Source of the DNA: an uncultured Bdellovibrionales bacterium
Lineage (GTDB): Bacteria; Bdellovibrionota; Bdellovibrionia; Bdellovibrionales; Bdellovibrionaceae
Direction: 5' to 3'
DNA length: 64,000 bases
Assembly (NCBI GenBank): GCA_903926205.1
Contig: CAIYID010000048.1
Span: 1-64,000, forward strand
Made by a program: the position numbers and the translations under genes. Under the pieces are notes generated by a model. The model saw nothing but the letters and a program-made list of their open reading frames with translations. It ran no database searches and had not been told where the DNA came from. Below are positions 20,927-31,310 of this stretch, in pieces. Every line of letters starts with the position of its first letter. Positions within the stretch are counted from its first letter, which is position 1.

Positions 20927-21250
20927 GTGAAAATAGACAAAGATTTTAAAAAAATAACCCTTTTTTTCTTAAAAAACATCGTTTTTTTTATAGTTATGTC
21001 GTTAACCTCTGGTTGCAATCCTTTTGGAAAAGGACAATCCATTGTGCCTGTGGCCTATGGGCCCATTCCAACAACCGTTCCGGCAGCAACAGGTATTGGA
21101 CCAATTTCCGCCAGTGTTCAGTCAGGGACCTCGGCAAATAACCGCAAGGTGTCCCTCTCCGTGGGAAATCCCACCTCACAAATTAAAATGCCAACAACAA
21201 ATGGGCGACTTTTATTTTTAAGTATTCAAGGGCAGATTCTTTCTGAATGA
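20927..21250 (+). CDS. Small lipoprotein upstream of the fibre protein
   Basis: A 107-residue GTG-start protein with a basic N-terminus, a hydrophobic helix and a lipobox ending SLTSGC at about residue 30, so a lipid-anchored protein is predicted. The mature part is short, Ser/Thr/Pro-rich and has no recognised domain. Its stop overlaps an upstream in-frame ATG of the fibre gene by 4 bp (ATGA), which suggests translational coupling and a joint role at the cell surface. It could also be a membrane anchor or chaperone for the fibre. Confidence 0.6.
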
Positions 21251-23625
21251 TTTTAAAACGGAGGTTATATGATAAAAATAAGGAAGGCGTACAAATGTTT
21301 ATCGCTGCACTTATTTTTTATTTTAGCGCTTTTATTTTTCCATTTCAGTTAGCTCAAGCCGCCCAAAATTTCACTATCCAAGGGCGTATTTTAAATGCCG
21401 ATGGGTCTGTTTTTACTTATAATAGCTCTCAATTCCAAATTTCTGTTTATAGCCCAGGCGCCGAGCATTGTTTGCTTTATCAAGAAATACAAAATTTTGA
21501 TTTATCTTTAACTCAAGGGAATTTCTCTCTCACTGTAGGAACTGGAACAAGAGTCGCTGCGAATGTCGATGGAGGAAATTCTCTCAATCAAGTTTTTTCT
21601 AATTCCAGCTCGCTCTCTTTAGCCGCTGCACCCTCGGCCTGTACTTCCGGAAATAGCTATGTTCCGGGAGTCAGCTCAACACGAATTTTAAATCTTTCTT
21701 ATTACGATGGCAGCGCTTGGGATACCGTGCCTGCCATCCCTTTGAGCTGGGTGCCTCAAGCTTTCTACGCCCAAGATGCAGGAATGCTCGGTGGAGTGGC
21801 TGCGGCCACTTACGTTAAAAGCACTTCTTTACCTTCCTGCGCAGGTGAGGCCATCTCCTGGGATGGATCTAGTTTTAGCTGCGCGAGTCTTTCTTCTGGA
21901 AGTGTCACCAGCGTCGCTGCGGGCACCGGACTTTCCGGCGGAACTATCACTGGCACCGGCACCATCAGCTTAGCCAACACGACTGTTACGGCTGGAAGTT
22001 ACGGCTCCGCGACCTCGGTGCCTACGTTCACCGTGAATGCCCAAGGACAATTAACTGCGGCGGCCAATGTCACAATTTCCGGCGTAGTCCCTGGCGGCTC
22101 AGCCGGAGGAGATCTCACCGGAACTTATCCAAGTCCAACTCTTGTTACTTCAGGAGTTACCGCCAACACTTACGGTTCGGCTTCCGCCGTGCCAAGCTTT
22201 ACTGTTGATGCCAAAGGAAGAGTCACGGCCGCTTCTGCCAATGCTTATCAAGATGCCTCTGCTCTGGGAAAAGGCATTGTGCAAGTGGGTTCAAATATTT
22301 CTATATCTTCTGGCGTGATCTCGCTAGCGGGCTCCGATGTCATTAGCGCTTTAGGCAGCACTCCAAATTCAGGAGCTGGCACCAACGGTTATGTCACGCA
22401 ATACACTGGCGCAAATACGCAGGGAAATTCACCCCTCTACATTAGCGGCGGGAATGTGGGGATAGGAACGACAACTCCAACTTCTACTTTTCAAATAGAT
22501 GGAGGAACCGCCGCAGTAGGAATTTCAGGCCAAGATATCACACTTAACGCTCAGAATGGTGGTACAGGCGGAGCCTCGGGAGGTAGCATTGTTCTTAATC
22601 CTGGCGATGGAACTTCAAGCTGGCCAAGAGGGAAAATTGATTTAAAAGGAATAACCCAGATAGACCGCTGGGGTTCAGATGGTTATGCCACCAGTGACTC
22701 TTGGAACAGATATCCGATGTCATCAAGTCTTGTTATTAAAAATGGCTGGTCTGTTGATGGGAATTCCTCCCTTATTGCAATGACTGTTAATAACTCTCAA
22801 ACAAAAGCTCAAGCGGCTTATTTCGGAATCGTCACAGTACCAGGGGCTTCGAGTTATACTCCTGCAATTGTCTGGGGACAATCGAACGGTAGTAGTTCCT
22901 ATTCAGAAACAATGAGATTGGACCCCTCGGGAAACCTTGGAATCGGCACCAATTCTCCCAAAAATACTTTAGCAGTAGTCACCGGAACCGCTTTTGGAAA
23001 AAATTTCCAGTCAGGGTTCAAAACTCTTAATGGTGGCGGTGATTCTGGAGGACTCTTTTTTGAAACTGATCATACAGGATGGCTCTTTCATTTTGGAGCC
23101 CAGGACGCCTCCAGCGGAGTCTACACAAAATTATTATCCCTAAAAGATGATGGAAAATTCGGAATTGGCGTGACAGGTCCCACTGCAACAGTGGCTATCC
23201 ATTCTGATGGAACGAACTTAGCCAAAACTTATCCTGCGACTGAAGCCGATGCCTTTCTCATAAACCACTATTACCAAAGTGATGTCTCCTATGCTCGAAT
23301 CACTGACCTTGTTTCAAGCACCTCAGATGTCACCGAAGGACAACTGAGAATATTAACCAAACCCTTTGGCGGAGATCCGGCAGAAGCACTAAGAATTTTA
23401 GGCAACGGAAACGTCGGAATCGGCACGACAAATCCAGCGACCACCTTGGATGTTGCGGGCACAATGAGAATGACAAAAAACTCCTCAGAGCCTTATTCTT
23501 GTGATGCCACTCATGACAGTGCTCTGGCTGTGACTTCGAAATATACAATGTGTATCTGCAACGGAAGCCAAAGCTCGCCCGCCTGGGTAAAAACAATCGA
23601 TGGTATTACTCCCTGTGGCTGGTAA
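21247..23625 (+). CDS. Secreted phage-tail-fibre-like surface protein
   Basis: A protein of up to 792 residues. After a signal segment ending LAQAAQNF, a beta-rich N-terminal domain with few cysteines (to about 180) leads to Gly/Ser/Thr-rich repeats. One is seen twice at about 245-330 ([20 protein letters not shown] and [20 protein letters not shown]). Several NVGIGTT-type units follow ([31 protein letters not shown]), as in tail fibres and trimeric surface proteins. It ends in a Cys-containing tail (CDATHDSAL ... MCICNGSQ ... PCGW), not an S74 peptidase domain. Start is uncertain: the ATG at 21295 has GGAAGG, but the 21247 start gives a better charged signal peptide. A role in surface attachment is inferred. 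Confidence 0.78.
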
Positions 23626-24726: not shown

Positions 24727-25422
24727 GTGAAACAAAACATTTTGATTTTTAAACATTCCATGGATTGCCCACCAGGGACAACCACTGATTTTTTCAGTCA
24801 GAACAATTGGAAATTCCAAGAACTCTACTGGCCAGAGCAATCAGAACCAGGACTTCCCACGACTTTTTTAGACGCTTATACTGGCCTCGTCATATTAGGA
24901 GGACCACAAAATGTGGACGAAGAAGCTCAATATCCCTGGCTAAAAATGGAGAAACAAGCCATTGAAAAATTTATAGAACTTAATAAACCTATTCTTGGGA
25001 TCTGCTTAGGAGCACAATTAATCGCTGAAATATTAGGCGCTGATGTTCGTCGCCACACCCACACCGAGGCTGGCTGGCAGCAAGTACAACTTCATCCCGA
25101 AGTTTCTGACTTGATTCCAAGCCAACCGCCTTCCCTGCATTTTTTTCAATGGCATTCCTATCGTTTTCTCACTCCGCAACAGGCCACTCGTTTTGCTGAG
25201 AATGAAATTACCGCTGACCAAGGCTTTGTCTACAGAAATAATATCGTCGGTGTTCAGTTTCATCCAGAGGCTGATCGTGATTGGATTGAAAAATGTTCAC
25301 AGGATTCTGATTACCCTCAAGGTCCTTTTGTTCAAAATCCGAGCGAACTCTTGAACGATGAAACACAAAATTCCCAAATGACCAGTTGGTATTTTCAATT
25401 ATTGAAAAAACTTTTTCGATAA
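24727..25422 (+). CDS. Class I glutamine amidotransferase-like protein
   Basis: A 231-residue GTG-start protein with the GATase1 fold. The nucleophile elbow GICLGAQ carries Cys93, and QFHPEAD supplies His179 and Glu181. LVILGGPQNVDEE precedes it as the usual oxyanion strand. It resembles GuaA-like stand-alone amidotransferases or gamma-glutamyl hydrolases such as PuuD-like enzymes. No synthetase partner is nearby, so the amide acceptor is unknown. It is divergent from galE with about 100 bp between them. Confidence 0.85.
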   Translation: MKQNILIFKHSMDCPPGTTTDFFSQNNWKFQELYWPEQSEPGLPTTFLDAYTGLVILGGPQNVDEEAQYPWLKMEKQAIEKFIELNKPILGICLGAQLIAEILGADVRRHTHTEAGWQQVQLHPEVSDLIPSQPPSLHFFQWHSYRFLTPQQATRFAENEITADQGFVYRNNIVGVQFHPEADRDWIEKCSQDSDYPQGPFVQNPSELLNDETQNSQMTSWYFQLLKKLFR

Positions 25423-25609: not shown

Positions 25610-26914
25610 ATGAAATTTTTGAGAAGAAAAATATCTGTTTTTTTGGCATTCGCTTTATCTTTTCTACTGACGATCCAATCGTGGGCCATTTCAAGAGAAA
25701 TGAATGCCTTAGTCAAGTTTGAGACGGGATCCAATGCGGTATCAACAAGAAGCTCCACTAAAATTTTGGTAGAGCATTATGAAATTCCGTTGAGATTGGT
25801 AGAATCTGATGTCGCCCTTCGAATCGATCCAAAGATAATGCAGTCTTTGATCTTTGAAAAAAATGGTGAAAAATACATTCGCTGGATTATAAATCCTGAA
25901 GACACCACTTGGTATAAAGAAGTCGAAACCTTGATGCTGAAAAATGAAATACCTGTGGAACGAAAACAATATTTTGAAGGATATCAAACCGCCTCTCGAA
26001 GTTATATTATTGTTGATCCTGTAAACAAAGCCGAGTTCTCCGCTAAAGTTTCCACTGACAAAACTGGCGGAAATTGGACGGATAAAAAACAAACCTATGA
26101 AGATGCTTGGCAAATTCGTATGGTTGCGGACTATGTGAACGATCTTGTTAAGAAAGGTCCTGAATTAAAGAACATTATTTTACTTGATGAACCGGCTATT
26201 TTCGGACTGAAAGAAATTGATCATGGAATGGTGATTAGGGAGTATGGAAAACTTGCTAAAAGTGGTCACTATTATGTTCCGGGCTTTTCGATCATGCATG
26301 ATGAGACTGGACGCAAACTTGCCAAATTAAATGGTTCTGATGATCCTGCGGCCTATTGGAATGAAAATTACAATAAGCCGCTGGCGCGCGCGATCGCTGA
26401 ATTTGTTGCTTTGACCGGAATGACTTATGATTCTCCTCACTCACAAAATTTCTTGGTGGAATTGGATAAAAATAAAAAACCCACTGGGAAAATTGTGTTT
26501 CGTGATTATGGCGACACTTATTTATCAGAAGATTTTTTTACAGCCATCGGAAGACCAGACATTCCTCAACGATGGGAACTTCAGAATGTTTTAAAAGACA
26601 GATTTTCAATCTCAGTTGGCATTCTTCACGGAAACAAAGCACCTTCTTGGATCAATCCCCTACAAGATTTGGAATCAAAAGAAAGTTACAACCAATGGGG
26701 AAGGGATTTTTACTCAGAATTTAGTAGTGAATTTTCTAATCAAACAGGAGTTTCATTAACTAGTCCGTCTACTCATTTGCGAGCAGGAATGTATTTTCAA
26801 AAAAGATTCGATCTCAATGATAAAAATGGATTGGAATTTATGGAGCTCGTGAAAGCCGGTAAACAACGTGCGCACCTGAACTACGGTAAATGCAGTCATG
26901 TCTTAGCGATGTAA
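25610..26914 (+). CDS. Secreted protein with kinase-like / NIS-synthetase-like motifs
   Basis: A 434-residue protein with a signal peptide (KFLRRKISVFLAF ... SWA, cut near residue 26) and a GGTGG-like site upstream. The rest looks enzymatic. TASRSYIIVDP (127-137) resembles a nucleotide loop, followed by a lysine in FSAKVS (146) and an LLDEPAIF strand (191-198). DSPHSQNFLVEL (274-285) and IVFRDYGD (295-302) match the H-x-x-N and (D)F(G)D-like catalytic and metal motifs shared by IucA/IucC siderophore synthetases and aminoglycoside-kinase-like folds. A secreted enzyme of this fold is unusual. It lies 89 bp before a secreted phosphatase. Function is not established. Confidence 0.5.
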   Translation: MKFLRRKISVFLAFALSFLLTIQSWAISREMNALVKFETGSNAVSTRSSTKILVEHYEIPLRLVESDVALRIDPKIMQSLIFEKNGEKYIRWIINPEDTTWYKEVETLMLKNEIPVERKQYFEGYQTASRSYIIVDPVNKAEFSAKVSTDKTGGNWTDKKQTYEDAWQIRMVADYVNDLVKKGPELKNIILLDEPAIFGLKEIDHGMVIREYGKLAKSGHYYVPGFSIMHDETGRKLAKLNGSDDPAAYWNENYNKPLARAIAEFVALTGMTYDSPHSQNFLVELDKNKKPTGKIVFRDYGDTYLSEDFFTAIGRPDIPQRWELQNVLKDRFSISVGILHGNKAPSWINPLQDLESKESYNQWGRDFYSEFSSEFSNQTGVSLTSPSTHLRAGMYFQKRFDLNDKNGLEFMELVKAGKQRAHLNYGKCSHVLAM

Positions 26915-27003
26915 TTGAGTCATGAACTTTGAGTTAACAGTGAAAAAGTCATGCTCTTGAAAAAGCCTGGACTGAACTGGCTAATACTTTTACAAGTGAG
27001 GAA

Positions 27004-27705
27004 ATGATGACAGCTTCATGGTTTCTTAAAACGCTCATTGTACTTCTTCCAAATTTTGGTTTTGCTCTTAGTCATCAATGCCAAAGTCCTATTGTTGAGA
27101 TTGAAGCCCCCGAGCTAACTCCTTCCTTGAACCAAAAACTTCCCGTTAACTTCCGCAAAGTGACTCACTTTTTGTATCGCGGTGGTCGCGTTGAAAATCT
27201 CACTCAAGCTCAATCCTTAGCTCAATTGGGAATTAAGACTGTTATCAATTTACAAGGTGGAGATTACAATGACCCTACAGGTATAAATTTTTTGGGTGAA
27301 AACAATTGGCATGAATGGCTTCCAAAAATGGAACCTGGCGAGGCGCCCTCTGAAATTTCCGCCGAGAACCAGAGATTCATCGTAGCAAATATTCCAGGCC
27401 TTAATTATTATTCTTTTCCGTTGAACACATTTTCCTATATCAGACCTGAGGCCGCAGACAAAATCCAACAAGTGTTGAAAATTCTTAATGATCCCAAAAC
27501 CCCTCGACCTATTTATCTTCACTGCGCTCATGGCATAGATCGAACCGGCTTGCTTATTGCGATGTATCGAGTGAGCACGCAGAATTATTGCGTGGCAGAC
27601 GCTCACCAAGAATGGTTTGACTATGGTCACAATTATTCACGCGCTCTTTTTACGGGCGGTCTAGACTACTTTTTTTATTCATACTTTTCCAGTCACGAGC
27701 AATAG
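27004..27705 (+). CDS. Secreted Cx5R dual-specificity/tyrosine phosphatase-like protein
   Basis: A 233-residue protein with a signal peptide (cut near residue 22) and an AGTGAGGAA site before the ATG. The signature HCAHGIDRTG (173-182) gives catalytic Cys174 and Arg180, as in DSP/PTP phosphatases. FLYRGGRVENL (56-66) and IKTVINLQGG (77-86) are the usual upstream strands. The general-acid Asp of the WPD-type loop is not obvious in FPLNTFSYIRP (138-148). It is predicted to act in the periplasm or outside the cell on phosphoproteins, phosphoinositides or inositol phosphates. The preceding gene encodes the kinase-like protein. Confidence 0.78.
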   Translation: MMTASWFLKTLIVLLPNFGFALSHQCQSPIVEIEAPELTPSLNQKLPVNFRKVTHFLYRGGRVENLTQAQSLAQLGIKTVINLQGGDYNDPTGINFLGENNWHEWLPKMEPGEAPSEISAENQRFIVANIPGLNYYSFPLNTFSYIRPEAADKIQQVLKILNDPKTPRPIYLHCAHGIDRTGLLIAMYRVSTQNYCVADAHQEWFDYGHNYSRALFTGGLDYFFYSYFSSHEQ

Positions 27706-27805: not shown

Positions 27806-27855
27806 TACGTAGTCAATGAAGGCTTGCGACGAAGCAATCCTTGGACGAGGACTCT

Positions 27856-28173
27856 GTGAACCCACAATTTAAAAAAGGCGTCTTAGAGCTTTGCGTGCTC
27901 AATATGATCGAAAAAAAAGACTACTACGGATATGAGTTGGTGGAGGATATTTCAAAAGTATTTGAAATATCCGAAGGAACGCTCTACCCGATTCTTCGTC
28001 GCTTGACCGAGGAAAAATATTTCGAAACATACTTGAAAGAGTCCTCAGAAGGTCCCTCCCGAAAATATTACCGAATCACAAAGTTAGGAAAAGCCTTTCA
28101 AAAAGAACAATTCAAACAGTGGATCGAATTTAATCAACAAGTTGAAAAATTAATTGGCAAGGAAATCAAATGA
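27856..28173 (+). CDS. PadR-family transcriptional regulator
   Basis: A 105-residue winged-helix regulator. GTG at 27856 is preferred over TTG at 27841 because a GAGGA site sits 6 nt upstream and the PadR consensus starts at NPQFKKGVLELCVL. YGYELVEDI and EGTLYPILRRL form the recognition region, and the wing is KYYRITKLG. A short C-terminal helix (WIEFNQQVEKLIG) is the dimer arm. Overlap of 4 bp with the next gene marks an operon whose products are membrane and envelope proteins. It probably represses that operon. Confidence 0.9.
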   Translation: MNPQFKKGVLELCVLNMIEKKDYYGYELVEDISKVFEISEGTLYPILRRLTEEKYFETYLKESSEGPSRKYYRITKLGKAFQKEQFKQWIEFNQQVEKLIGKEIK

Positions 28174-28742
28174 CAAAACAAGAGTTTTTAAAGTCACTCG
28201 AAGACAACCTTAAACTTAATCAAGTGCATGACATCAAAGAAATTCTTTCAGATTACGAGGAACACTTCCAACATGGACTCAGTAAAGGAAAAATAGAGGC
28301 CGAAATTGCGGCCAACCTCGGTTCCACCAGAACGATTGCCAAGGCCTACCAAACTGAGAATATGATCAAAGTCGTTAAAAATACGAATTCAAAATTTAGT
28401 TGGAGTTTAGCTCTCACCGTGATCTGTCGACTCTTAATCATTGCGCCTTTTAATTTTATCGTGCTTTTTGTTCCAGGAATTTTGCTTTTTACTTTCCTCG
28501 TCATTGGCTGGAGTTTTTCGGCGGCGCTGGGTTCTGCTAGCTTAGCGCTTTTTGCAACCCTTCCCGCTGTTGGAGCACTTATGACGAGTGCCTGGCTGTG
28601 GCTCGCAGGAATCTCCGCTGGTTTTAGTTTACTTGGACTTGCCGCCATCGGAGGAATGATTATGTTTCTCTTGTCGAAGTTCATTCTATTGGGGCTTATT
28701 AGCTACCTTCAATGGAACCTGAAATTTATCTTAGAAAAATAA
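28170..28742 (+). CDS. HAAS-domain (DUF1700-like) membrane protein
   Basis: A 190-residue protein. A short helical HAAS-like domain (1-65) contains the typical MTKQEFLKSLEDNL, EILSDYEEHF and IAANLGSTRTIAKAY motifs. Four or so membrane helices follow (about 80-185). PadR-DUF1700-DUF4097 is a known gene arrangement in many bacteria, and the 4-bp overlap with padR supports co-translation. It acts at the inner membrane; the molecular role is unknown, with envelope-stress sensing often proposed. Confidence 0.85.
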   Translation: MTKQEFLKSLEDNLKLNQVHDIKEILSDYEEHFQHGLSKGKIEAEIAANLGSTRTIAKAYQTENMIKVVKNTNSKFSWSLALTVICRLLIIAPFNFIVLFVPGILLFTFLVIGWSFSAALGSASLALFATLPAVGALMTSAWLWLAGISAGFSLLGLAAIGGMIMFLLSKFILLGLISYLQWNLKFILEK

Positions 28743-28798
28743 GTTCGTCACACTTGTATTTTTAAAATTAAATCACACTTAATATATCTGGAGAAATA

Positions 28799-29665
28799 AT
28801 GAAGTCACTCAATTCCTTTTCAAAAATATTTTTAATCCTTATTCTTTCGACAGTGGCTTTTCTCAGCCTCACCGCTTATGCCGCAAAGCAAGCTTATAGC
28901 GCCGACCCGGATTTTTTAAAAAAAGTTGAAGAAAAGTATCACTGGAAAATTCATCTCAATAATAATGGCTTCTTAGCGGAAGAAAGTTCCGGCCCAAAAG
29001 AACTGACTCACGATTCCTGGAACTTTACTCCGCCTAAAAATAATTTAAGCATTAAAATTCTCAGTGGTGACATTGCACTTAAAACAACGACTGCAAAGGA
29101 AATTAAAATCTCTGCCGAAGGCCTCTTGAATTCAAAAGTCGCTCCTCGACTTTTGAAAACGGAGATCACAGAGTTTCAGCTTGCCATTAGTCAACCTGAA
29201 AACGGAACTGAAAACCTTCGAGTACAAATTGAAATCCCAACCTCTTTCACTAAAAATTTAAGCGTGATAACAGCTAGTGGCGATATCACGGCAGAAAGTT
29301 TGAGCCTTAATTCCGTCGAACTTAAAACTGTGTCAGGCGCAATCACGCTCAATAAAGTGACGATTAAAGATTTAGCACTAAAAACCGTTTCTGGAAACTT
29401 TCAGGCAAGAGAATCTTCTATCGCAGATTTATCAGGAAAATCAGTTAGCGGGGATATCGAAGTCTATGATTTGATTCCGGCAAATGTGGATTTCGCTTCT
29501 GTTTCTGGCAACATCAAGCTCAAAATTATTCCGAACGAAAAAACAAATTTTTCCCTCAACTCGGTTTCTGGTGATATTTTTAATAAACATGAACATCAGC
29601 TAAGCAACAATTATGATCTTCAAGTGAAAGCCTCAACCATGAGTGGAAATATTCAAATTGAATAA
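28799..29665 (+). CDS. DUF4097-family beta-repeat envelope protein
   Basis: A 288-residue protein with a signal/anchor segment (about 9-28). The C-terminal half is a repetitive beta structure in which VSGDI/VSGNI-type units recur: LSGDIALK, ASGDITAE, VSGAITLN, VSGNFQAR, VSGDIEVY, VSGNIKLK, VSGDIFNK and MSGNIQIE. This spacing is the DUF4097 (putative adhesin) hallmark. It is the third gene of the PadR operon and probably faces the periplasm. It is normally linked to the HAAS membrane protein, with unknown function. Confidence 0.88.
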   Translation: MKSLNSFSKIFLILILSTVAFLSLTAYAAKQAYSADPDFLKKVEEKYHWKIHLNNNGFLAEESSGPKELTHDSWNFTPPKNNLSIKILSGDIALKTTTAKEIKISAEGLLNSKVAPRLLKTEITEFQLAISQPENGTENLRVQIEIPTSFTKNLSVITASGDITAESLSLNSVELKTVSGAITLNKVTIKDLALKTVSGNFQARESSIADLSGKSVSGDIEVYDLIPANVDFASVSGNIKLKIIPNEKTNFSLNSVSGDIFNKHEHQLSNNYDLQVKASTMSGNIQIE

Positions 29666-29765: not shown

Positions 29766-29814
29766 AACCCCTTGTGAATGAAAATTCTTTCGATAGAATT
29801 TAAGTTGAGGGGTT
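29766..29814 (+). promoter_or_regulatory. Leader hairpin sequestering the Shine-Dalgarno sequence
   Basis: AACCCCT (29766-29772) pairs with AGGGGTT (29808-29814), and the latter contains the GAGGGG ribosome-binding site for the ATG at 29817. Inside the loop is a second perfect 7-bp stem, AAATTCT/AGAATTT with a 6-nt loop (29782-29801). The arrangement would block translation when folded. It could be a thermosensor, a protein target or an incidental fold. Confidence 0.5.
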
Positions 29815-29816
29815 AT

Positions 29817-31310
29817 ATGAAACGAACAAAATTTGTCGTGCTGGCATTTTCTGCACTTGCTGTTGTTCTTCTTTCACAAAATTGCCAAAAAGGATTTGGA
29901 ATCGCCTCGAGACTTTCGACTTCTTTACCTTCTCTCAATTCACCCAATTCCTCTTACAATGCTTTAACAATATCTCAAAATGGGACTTCTTTAAAATATT
30001 TTGGTTTTTTTGCAGACGCTATGACGAACAGCTATATTTCAGAAACCTCCGCCGTCGCTAACATCCACTTTGTGCAAGGTTCTAATGTGAGCGATGTCGC
30101 TGCCAAAGTGAAGCTCGCAGCTAATGCGAATGATTTAGCCGTGATCATGGTTCAGCCGCTCATTTTTACCTGGCAGTCAGCTCGACTCAGCGCCGACTAT
30201 AAGACAACGATTCAGCAACTCTACCAAACTTTACTCAACCAACAATTACTTGGTTCGGTACTTGGTTTTTATGTGATTGATGAGCCTTATTGGGAAAATG
30301 TGAGCTTCAACGTGAATGACTCAAATCAGCAAGTTTATAACAACTTGCAACTGGCCGCCCAAGAGCTCAACTCGGTTTTCGGCAATAAAATTATTATTGC
30401 CACCGAAGCAACTCCGACGATGGATAAATTCATCGCAGGAAATCCTTGGCCTGGATTCCCCCCTGAGTACAACTGGGTCGCTGTCAATTGCTATCTCGCT
30501 CAAGGCCCCACCTGTGATACAAACGAAAAATTCATTAACTACACGTCTGCTCTTTTTAGCACGATGACAAACAAACCCAACCAAAATCTTATTTTCACTC
30601 TTGATAACTATTGGAACTCAGACGCAGGAAAAACAGCGACTATCCAGCAACAGCTCATTCAACGGACTCAGCTTCAATACAATTTAGCCGTGCAATATAA
30701 TTCTCCAGCGCTTATCTCTTTTATCTACCAAAGCATTCCATCGAGTTCAGACAACCTCGTCGGCCTTATGGATATGCCTCTATTGAAGCATGAAATCTTT
30801 GATTTGGCTCGATCGATAACGCAGAAATTTTCGAATCTAACACCAACGCCCACGGCTACAGCGACTCCAGTGCCGACTCCGGCGTCAACACCAACTCCGG
30901 TTCCAACAACAACACCCGCAACACAAAATAATTATCGTTTTTTTAAAGCTGTTAATGGCGAACACTTTATTACTTTGAATCGCACCGAACCGCCCCCTTC
31001 AACTTACACTTATGAGTTTATTGCTTACGTTTCCTTTGTTTCACAATTAAGTACAAATTCAGCTCAGATTTTTCGTTGTTATTCAGCTGGTCTTAGTATG
31101 CATTTTGTTTCCAGAGATCCTGCATGCGAGGGCACAGCCCAAGAAGGCTCGCTAGGATTTATCTATGCCACTCAAACGACGAATAGTACGGCTCTCTATC
31201 GCTTCTTTAACTTACAAACGGGTGATCATCTAATAACGACTAATTATAGTGAAGGAATTAATGCTGGCTATACCTTGGAAGGCACACTTGGCTTTGTGCC
31301 AACGAATTAG
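29817..31310 (+). CDS. Lipoprotein with TIM-barrel-like domain and C-terminal DUF5648-type repeats
   Basis: A 497-residue lipoprotein. The ATG at 29817 is preferred because of a strong GAGGGG site and a signal peptide ending LLSQNC. The N-terminal domain (about 45-340) resembles a glycoside-hydrolase barrel, with FGFFADAM, VLGFYVIDEPYW (a possible catalytic Glu) and WVAVNCYL strands. A Thr/Pro linker (TPTATATPVPTPASTPTPVP) joins it to a C-terminal part with YRFFKAVNGEHFIT and YRFFNLQTGDHLITTN. These match the DUF5648 'YRF...GDHFYT...E' repeat pattern seen in secreted lipases and glycosidases. It should sit in the outer membrane, with substrate unknown. Confidence 0.65.
   Translation: MKRTKFVVLAFSALAVVLLSQNCQKGFGIASRLSTSLPSLNSPNSSYNALTISQNGTSLKYFGFFADAMTNSYISETSAVANIHFVQGSNVSDVAAKVKLAANANDLAVIMVQPLIFTWQSARLSADYKTTIQQLYQTLLNQQLLGSVLGFYVIDEPYWENVSFNVNDSNQQVYNNLQLAAQELNSVFGNKIIIATEATPTMDKFIAGNPWPGFPPEYNWVAVNCYLAQGPTCDTNEKFINYTSALFSTMTNKPNQNLIFTLDNYWNSDAGKTATIQQQLIQRTQLQYNLAVQYNSPALISFIYQSIPSSSDNLVGLMDMPLLKHEIFDLARSITQKFSNLTPTPTATATPVPTPASTPTPVPTTTPATQNNYRFFKAVNGEHFITLNRTEPPPSTYTYEFIAYVSFVSQLSTNSAQIFRCYSAGLSMHFVSRDPACEGTAQEGSLGFIYATQTTNSTALYRFFNLQTGDHLITTNYSEGINAGYTLEGTLGFVPTN

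Follow-up and report, generated by a model that had tools for sequence, protein, structure and literature searches.

An exported protein of the NIS synthetase fold predicted from a Bdellovibrionales genome

Genes and motifs at the locus

The window, a 64,000-nucleotide stretch of one contig from an uncultured Bdellovibrionales bacterium (genome of 3.34 Mb in 94 contigs), carries a gene for a 434-residue protein, here called K. Going by its structural model and predicted signal peptide, K is best described as an exported protein with the NIS (siderophore) synthetase fold. A phosphatase gene follows in tandem on the same strand, 89 bp away, and an amidotransferase gene lies 187 bp upstream, also on the same strand. 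The K and phosphatase reading frames are both intact, and each is preceded by a purine-rich, Shine-Dalgarno-like stretch. The features are as follows.

24727..25422, + strand: class-I glutamine amidotransferase-like protein, no signal peptide (PF00117, E 1.1e-23)
25610..26914, + strand: K, exported NIS-synthetase-fold protein, 434 aa, ATG start (model, fold, alignments)
25610..25687, + strand: predicted signal peptide of K, about residues 1-26 (sequence; hydrophobic N-terminus in 26/26 homologues)
25994..26002, + strand: S129-R130-S131, opposite the S-x-R-T motif of NIS synthetases (alignment)
26045..26047, + strand: K146, opposite the conserved ATP-site Lys of NIS synthetases (alignments)
26084..26086, + strand: K159, opposite the invariant Arg of cytosolic NIS synthetases (alignment; AcsD R305 numbering inferred)
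26438..26449, + strand: H277-x-Q279-N280 motif (alignments)
26501..26515, + strand: R298-D299-Y-G-D302, opposite KDF..GD of NIS synthetases (alignments)
26891..26893, + strand: C428, conserved Cys near the C-terminus (alignment, Cys count)
27004..27705, + strand: dual-specificity/PFA-DSP-type phosphatase, 233 aa, probably exported, ATG start (Pfam, sequence, fold)
27520..27549, + strand: HCAHGIDRTG signature of the phosphatase, residues 173-182 (sequence, alignment)

An earlier, sequence-only reading of this DNA had described the first protein as carrying a signal peptide together with H-x-x-N and RDYGD motifs, and all of these are present. The hydrophobic N-terminal stretch ends in SWA, followed by ISRE, and residues 1-31 comprise signal peptide plus linker. 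The motifs occur as H-x-Q-N at residues 277-280 and RDYGD at residues 298-302, and they are not chance matches, because they are invariant or nearly so across the homologue alignments. In particular, a 26-row alignment of K homologues shows no variation at H277, Q279, R298, D299 or D302.

Other exported or envelope-related genes occur in the window. The product of 21247-23625 is a 792-residue exported protein, fibre-like, in which GIGTT-P motifs recur; it matches no Pfam family and presumably resembles the chimeric fibre proteins of Bdellovibrio. Downstream of the phosphatase, a PadR regulator, a HAAS protein and a DUF4097 'toastrack' protein stand in a row (27841-29665) that looks like an ordinary envelope module, and a 510-residue lipoprotein-like exported protein with a C-terminal DUF5648 lies at 29778-31310.

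Fold and ATP site of K

The AlphaFold model of K, built from the 26-row alignment, has a pLDDT of 90.9 and a pTM of 0.88. The best 50 Foldseek matches listed from the PDB are all NIS synthetases, with AcsD first (best E 1.9e-11), at modest TM-scores of 0.39-0.54. VIA-align places 22 NIS entries at Z 16.1-22.3 against the model, again with AcsD on top at 22.3. The sequence-only reading had likened K to NIS synthetases and kinase-like folds and proposed this kind of fold comparison, which did find synthetase similarity; the likeness is specifically to NIS synthetases, on which fold, profile similarity and ATP-site residues agree. The best non-NIS matches, the AMPylase YdiU/SelO (Z 11.8) and the Bud32/PRPK kinases (Z about 10.5), have a kinase-like core in common with K at Z 10-12, although this similarity is far below that of the NIS synthetases. 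HipA, Fam20 and CotH kinases are absent from the best 50 VIA-align and best 50 Foldseek matches listed. The accessible portion of one study includes IucA_IucC among the kinase-like families used for clustering (PMC9758233).

At the sequence level the relationship is faint. Pfam returns no family for K at E <= 1, leaving it below the cut-offs of PF04183 and PF06276, the NCBIfam search gives no meaningful match, and a PDB sequence search yields a single meaningless match for K (E 0.057) and none for its profile. PF06276, which we take to be the C-terminal domain common to IucA/IucC-type enzymes, is matched by 15 of the 26 aligned K homologues at E values up to 1 (best 3e-5). Profile-profile comparison of K with 10 cytosolic NIS synthetases from the same phylum gives E 2.9e-5 and a probability of 73.5, a moderate match limited to K residues 165-308.

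Aligning K with AcsD provides a view of what K lacks. The alignment spans 348 residues and pairs residues 32-394 of the K model with AcsD 157-564; since it begins at AcsD 157 and model residue 32, the N-terminal (thumb) domain of NIS synthetases, about 150 residues long (AcsD 1-156), is missing from K. K thus has the fold of AcsD, IucA, IucC, AlcC and DesD (PF04183 plus PF06276), at Z up to 22.3, and their motif order, SxR(T/S)...K...(R/K)...R...HxQN...(K/R)D...GD, but unlike them it is exported, has no N-terminal domain and has no Pfam match. For these three reasons K is not a NIS synthetase in the strict family sense, even if it plausibly works like one.

The ATP sites were compared in an alignment with 79 rows: 50 for K and its homologues (the K rows), 19 for distant paralogues and 10 for cytosolic NIS synthetases. 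Conservation among the K rows is nearly total at identities down to 23%: R210, H277, Q279, D299 and D302 are each present in 50/50 rows and N280 in 49/50, while R130, K146 and K159 are each found in 49 rows with one gap. The distant paralogues keep R130, R210, Q279, N280 and D299 throughout (19/19), K146 in 17/19 and H277 in 15/19; their D302 column has Asp in 6/19. R210 is also invariant in the cytosolic NIS rows. The exception is the column of K159, where Arg is found in 10/10 cytosolic NIS synthetases, but Lys in all 49 K rows that have a residue there; the distant paralogues have Arg in 12 and Lys in 5 of 19.

By alignment, the K159 column would correspond to R305 of AcsD, an Arg that is crucial for adenylate formation according to the available part of the AcsD study (PMC3323832). 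Arg at this position in NIS synthetases is replaced by Lys in K. A hand alignment had placed D158 opposite R305; this assignment was dropped, as the 79-row alignment places K159 there. Model confidence is lower in the loop around K159, with a pLDDT of about 75 for residues 151-160. The same portion of that study describes AcsD E442, two residues before H444, as needed for activity (PMC3323832). D274 of K may correspond to E442, with an alignment gap adjoining the column, which holds Asp in 46/50 K rows, Glu in 13/19 paralogues and Val in 9/10 cytosolic NIS synthetases.

The replacement of R305 by Lys and the absence of the N-terminal domain make adenylation by K uncertain, and both can be read in favor of a different activity, in which K is an exported protein kinase or AMPylase that places phosphate or AMP onto a protein or envelope glycan and adenylates no carboxylate. 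YdiU/SelO and Bud32/PRPK, the best non-NIS folds, would fit such an activity as well. However, the best NIS match scores about 10 Z units higher, the motif takes its NIS form, H-x-Q-N, and the NIS-invariant R210 is kept in every K row. We therefore regard a kinase or AMPylase as an unlikely identity for K.

Export, distribution and neighbours of K

NIS synthetases are cytoplasmic, ATP-consuming builders of siderophores. K departs from this typical location, as it and its homologues have predicted signal peptides. A hydrophobic N-terminal stretch is found in 26/26 K homologues, at a level reached by 0/10 cytosolic NIS synthetases. In a wider set the stretch is present in 49/50 K rows and 17/19 paralogues, but also in 270/458 background open reading frames, so our case for export is built on where the stretch lies and on the comparison with cytosolic NIS synthetases. 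A stricter export rule accepts 40/50 K rows, 17/19 paralogues and 0/10 cytosolic NIS synthetases; it is still lenient, letting 175/458 background frames through while failing 10/50 K rows. K itself passes, and the amidotransferase and phosphatase are rejected. Predicted export of K from the cytoplasm is well supported by these comparisons, and the earlier description of K as secreted holds in the sense of export across the inner membrane, as judged from the signal peptide.

A K profile searched against Bdellovibrionota found matches in 73 of 290 genomes, spread over the phylum. A GTDB-wide scan with two short K-specific patterns located 36 K loci, almost all in Bdellovibrio, Bacteriovorax or relatives. 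Three of the 36 are titled otherwise (a Streptomyces griseus MAG, Betaproteobacteria and Proteobacteria) and are probably mislabelled MAGs. No K homologue was found in plasmid and phage records. In a tree of 47 proteins, which contains several very long branches, exported proteins and cytosolic NIS synthetases are split by a 100/100 branch. K belongs to this exported branch, which is spread across Bdellovibrionota. Nine of 10 distant paralogues scanned exceed the Pfam cut-off of PF04183 and/or PF06276 (IucA_IucC and/or FhuF), and one has no match; some distant paralogues have lipobox-like N-termini. In the genome of the window nothing matches PF04183 at E <= 0.001, but one paralogue, with a hydrophobic N-terminus, lies above the PF06276 cut-off. 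We found no paper on exported NIS-fold proteins in the open-licence PMC literature.

We also noted a larger family of NIS-fold paralogues than K itself. These proteins (L143-L162) are diverse, ranging from 360 to 1026 aa; most have signal-peptide- or lipoprotein-like N-termini, and many contain (E)xHxQN and RD(L/F)(D/G)G motifs.

The phosphatase downstream of K is, by its Pfam matches and HCX5R loop, an ordinary dual-specificity phosphatase. It exceeds the Pfam cut-offs of Y_phosphatase2, PTP-NADK, Y_phosphatase3 and Tc-R-P (PF03162, 41.1 bits against a cut-off of 27; PF13350, 39.1 against 22.2), and H173, C174, G177, R180 and G182 are invariant in an 18-row alignment. Its model is moderate (pLDDT 77.2). 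The top sequence and fold matches, the PFA-DSPs AtPFA-DSP1 and SIW14 together with TpbA, have the same HCX5R loop, although identity is only about 20-23%. The sequence-only reading had called this protein a secreted HCAHGIDRTG phosphatase. The reading frame and motif are present as described; the phosphatase is probably exported, its signal peptide being plausible by eye and rejected under the stricter rule. Relatives often encode Cx5R phosphatases whose N-termini are hydrophobic, as in 27 of the 28 matches listed (L033-L061).

The tandem arrangement of two probably exported products, 89 bp apart, is what suggested a writer/eraser pair, in which K would phosphorylate a target outside the cytoplasm and the adjacent phosphatase would strip the phosphate off. 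The gene-neighbour survey proposed with that idea speaks against it. Among 99 related genomes, 41 have K-like proteins and 23 have phosphatase homologues; the two occur together in 9, against 9.5 expected by chance (p = 1), and they are adjacent in only one of these nine, the window's own. No phosphatase homologue lies beside K in any of the 36 pattern-scan loci (flanks up to 6 kb) or in 29 other K loci (L003-L031; flanks up to 1.5 kb), some flanks ending at contig ends. An operon of K with the phosphatase was likewise discarded: the linkage is not conserved, and a promoter and terminator scan found nothing above shuffled sequence (promoter-like sites, 7 with 7.8 expected; terminator-like sites, 1 with 3.0 expected). 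The phosphatase appears to be a chance neighbour of K, and the writer/eraser pair is extremely improbable.

In contrast to the phosphatase, whose co-occurrence with K is at chance level, the amidotransferase repeatedly stands next to K within the family. It is present in 41 of the 99 related genomes and together with K in 26, against 17.0 expected (p = 3.6e-4, a value that ignores the relatedness of the genomes). Of the 26 genomes with both, 17 have the two genes side by side, in three orders (convergent, same-strand downstream and same-strand upstream) and in five genera, although 13 of the 17 genomes are from one genus. These counts raise the idea of a functional pair, in which an amine or glutamyl compound made or recycled by one protein would be used by the other. 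However, the amidotransferase carries no export signal, which would put it in a different compartment from K and makes direct joint catalysis unlikely. Most loci from beyond the family lack the link: the amidotransferase stands beside K in 5 of the 36 pattern-scan loci, is missing from the other 31, and is missing from 11 of 12 further loci (L116-L127). Such a pair, while compatible with our best explanation of K, seems doubtful to us.

Possible functions of K and its C-terminal cysteine

Taken together, the comparisons make it probable, in our judgment, that K is an exported, ATP-dependent NIS-fold enzyme without the N-terminal domain, part of an exported branch found across Bdellovibrionota, and that the phosphatase is unrelated to its function. 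In this model, K would bind Mg-ATP in the NIS manner and activate a carboxylate as the adenylate, with Lys standing in for the Arg at the position of AcsD R305, and the activated carboxylate would then be joined to an amine or hydroxyl. Alternatively, K might pass AMP or phosphate to its target. This would take place in the periplasm or, where the bacterium is a predator, within the prey or in its surroundings. The periplasm is not, to our knowledge, a compartment that holds much ATP, and we know of no ATP pool there, so the ATP might come from the prey or from leaking cytoplasm.

The same consideration, along with the missing N-terminal part, could point to a periplasmic pseudoenzyme that binds a nucleotide or siderophore-like ligand without catalysis. 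Near-total conservation of the ATP-site residues across such divergent sequences argues against this, and we consider a pseudoenzyme quite improbable. If K is instead the active enzyme that we favor, then a lineage noted for preying on other bacteria would possess a phylum-wide, exported, N-terminally shortened NIS branch whose ATP site is intact, and would carry out ATP-dependent reactions beyond the cytoplasm.

The C-terminus of K offers one further feature that may distinguish it from NIS synthetases, a conserved Cys. A more speculative proposal, to which we give little credence at present, is that K represents an ancient exported NIS-fold family whose members spend ATP in the periplasm or in prey on ligating or adenylating molecules of the envelope or of the prey, with the Cys near the flexible C-terminus as acyl carrier or attachment point. 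C428 is the sole Cys of mature K, and it might serve in a disulphide dimer, in covalent attachment or as an acyl carrier. The Cys count covered K-like proteins, distant proteins and background open reading frames: a Cys falls within the last 15 residues in 48/51 K-like and 17/20 distant proteins, against 93/458 background frames, and a single Cys follows residue 40 in 32/51 K-like and 13/20 distant proteins, including a few in which that Cys lies elsewhere.
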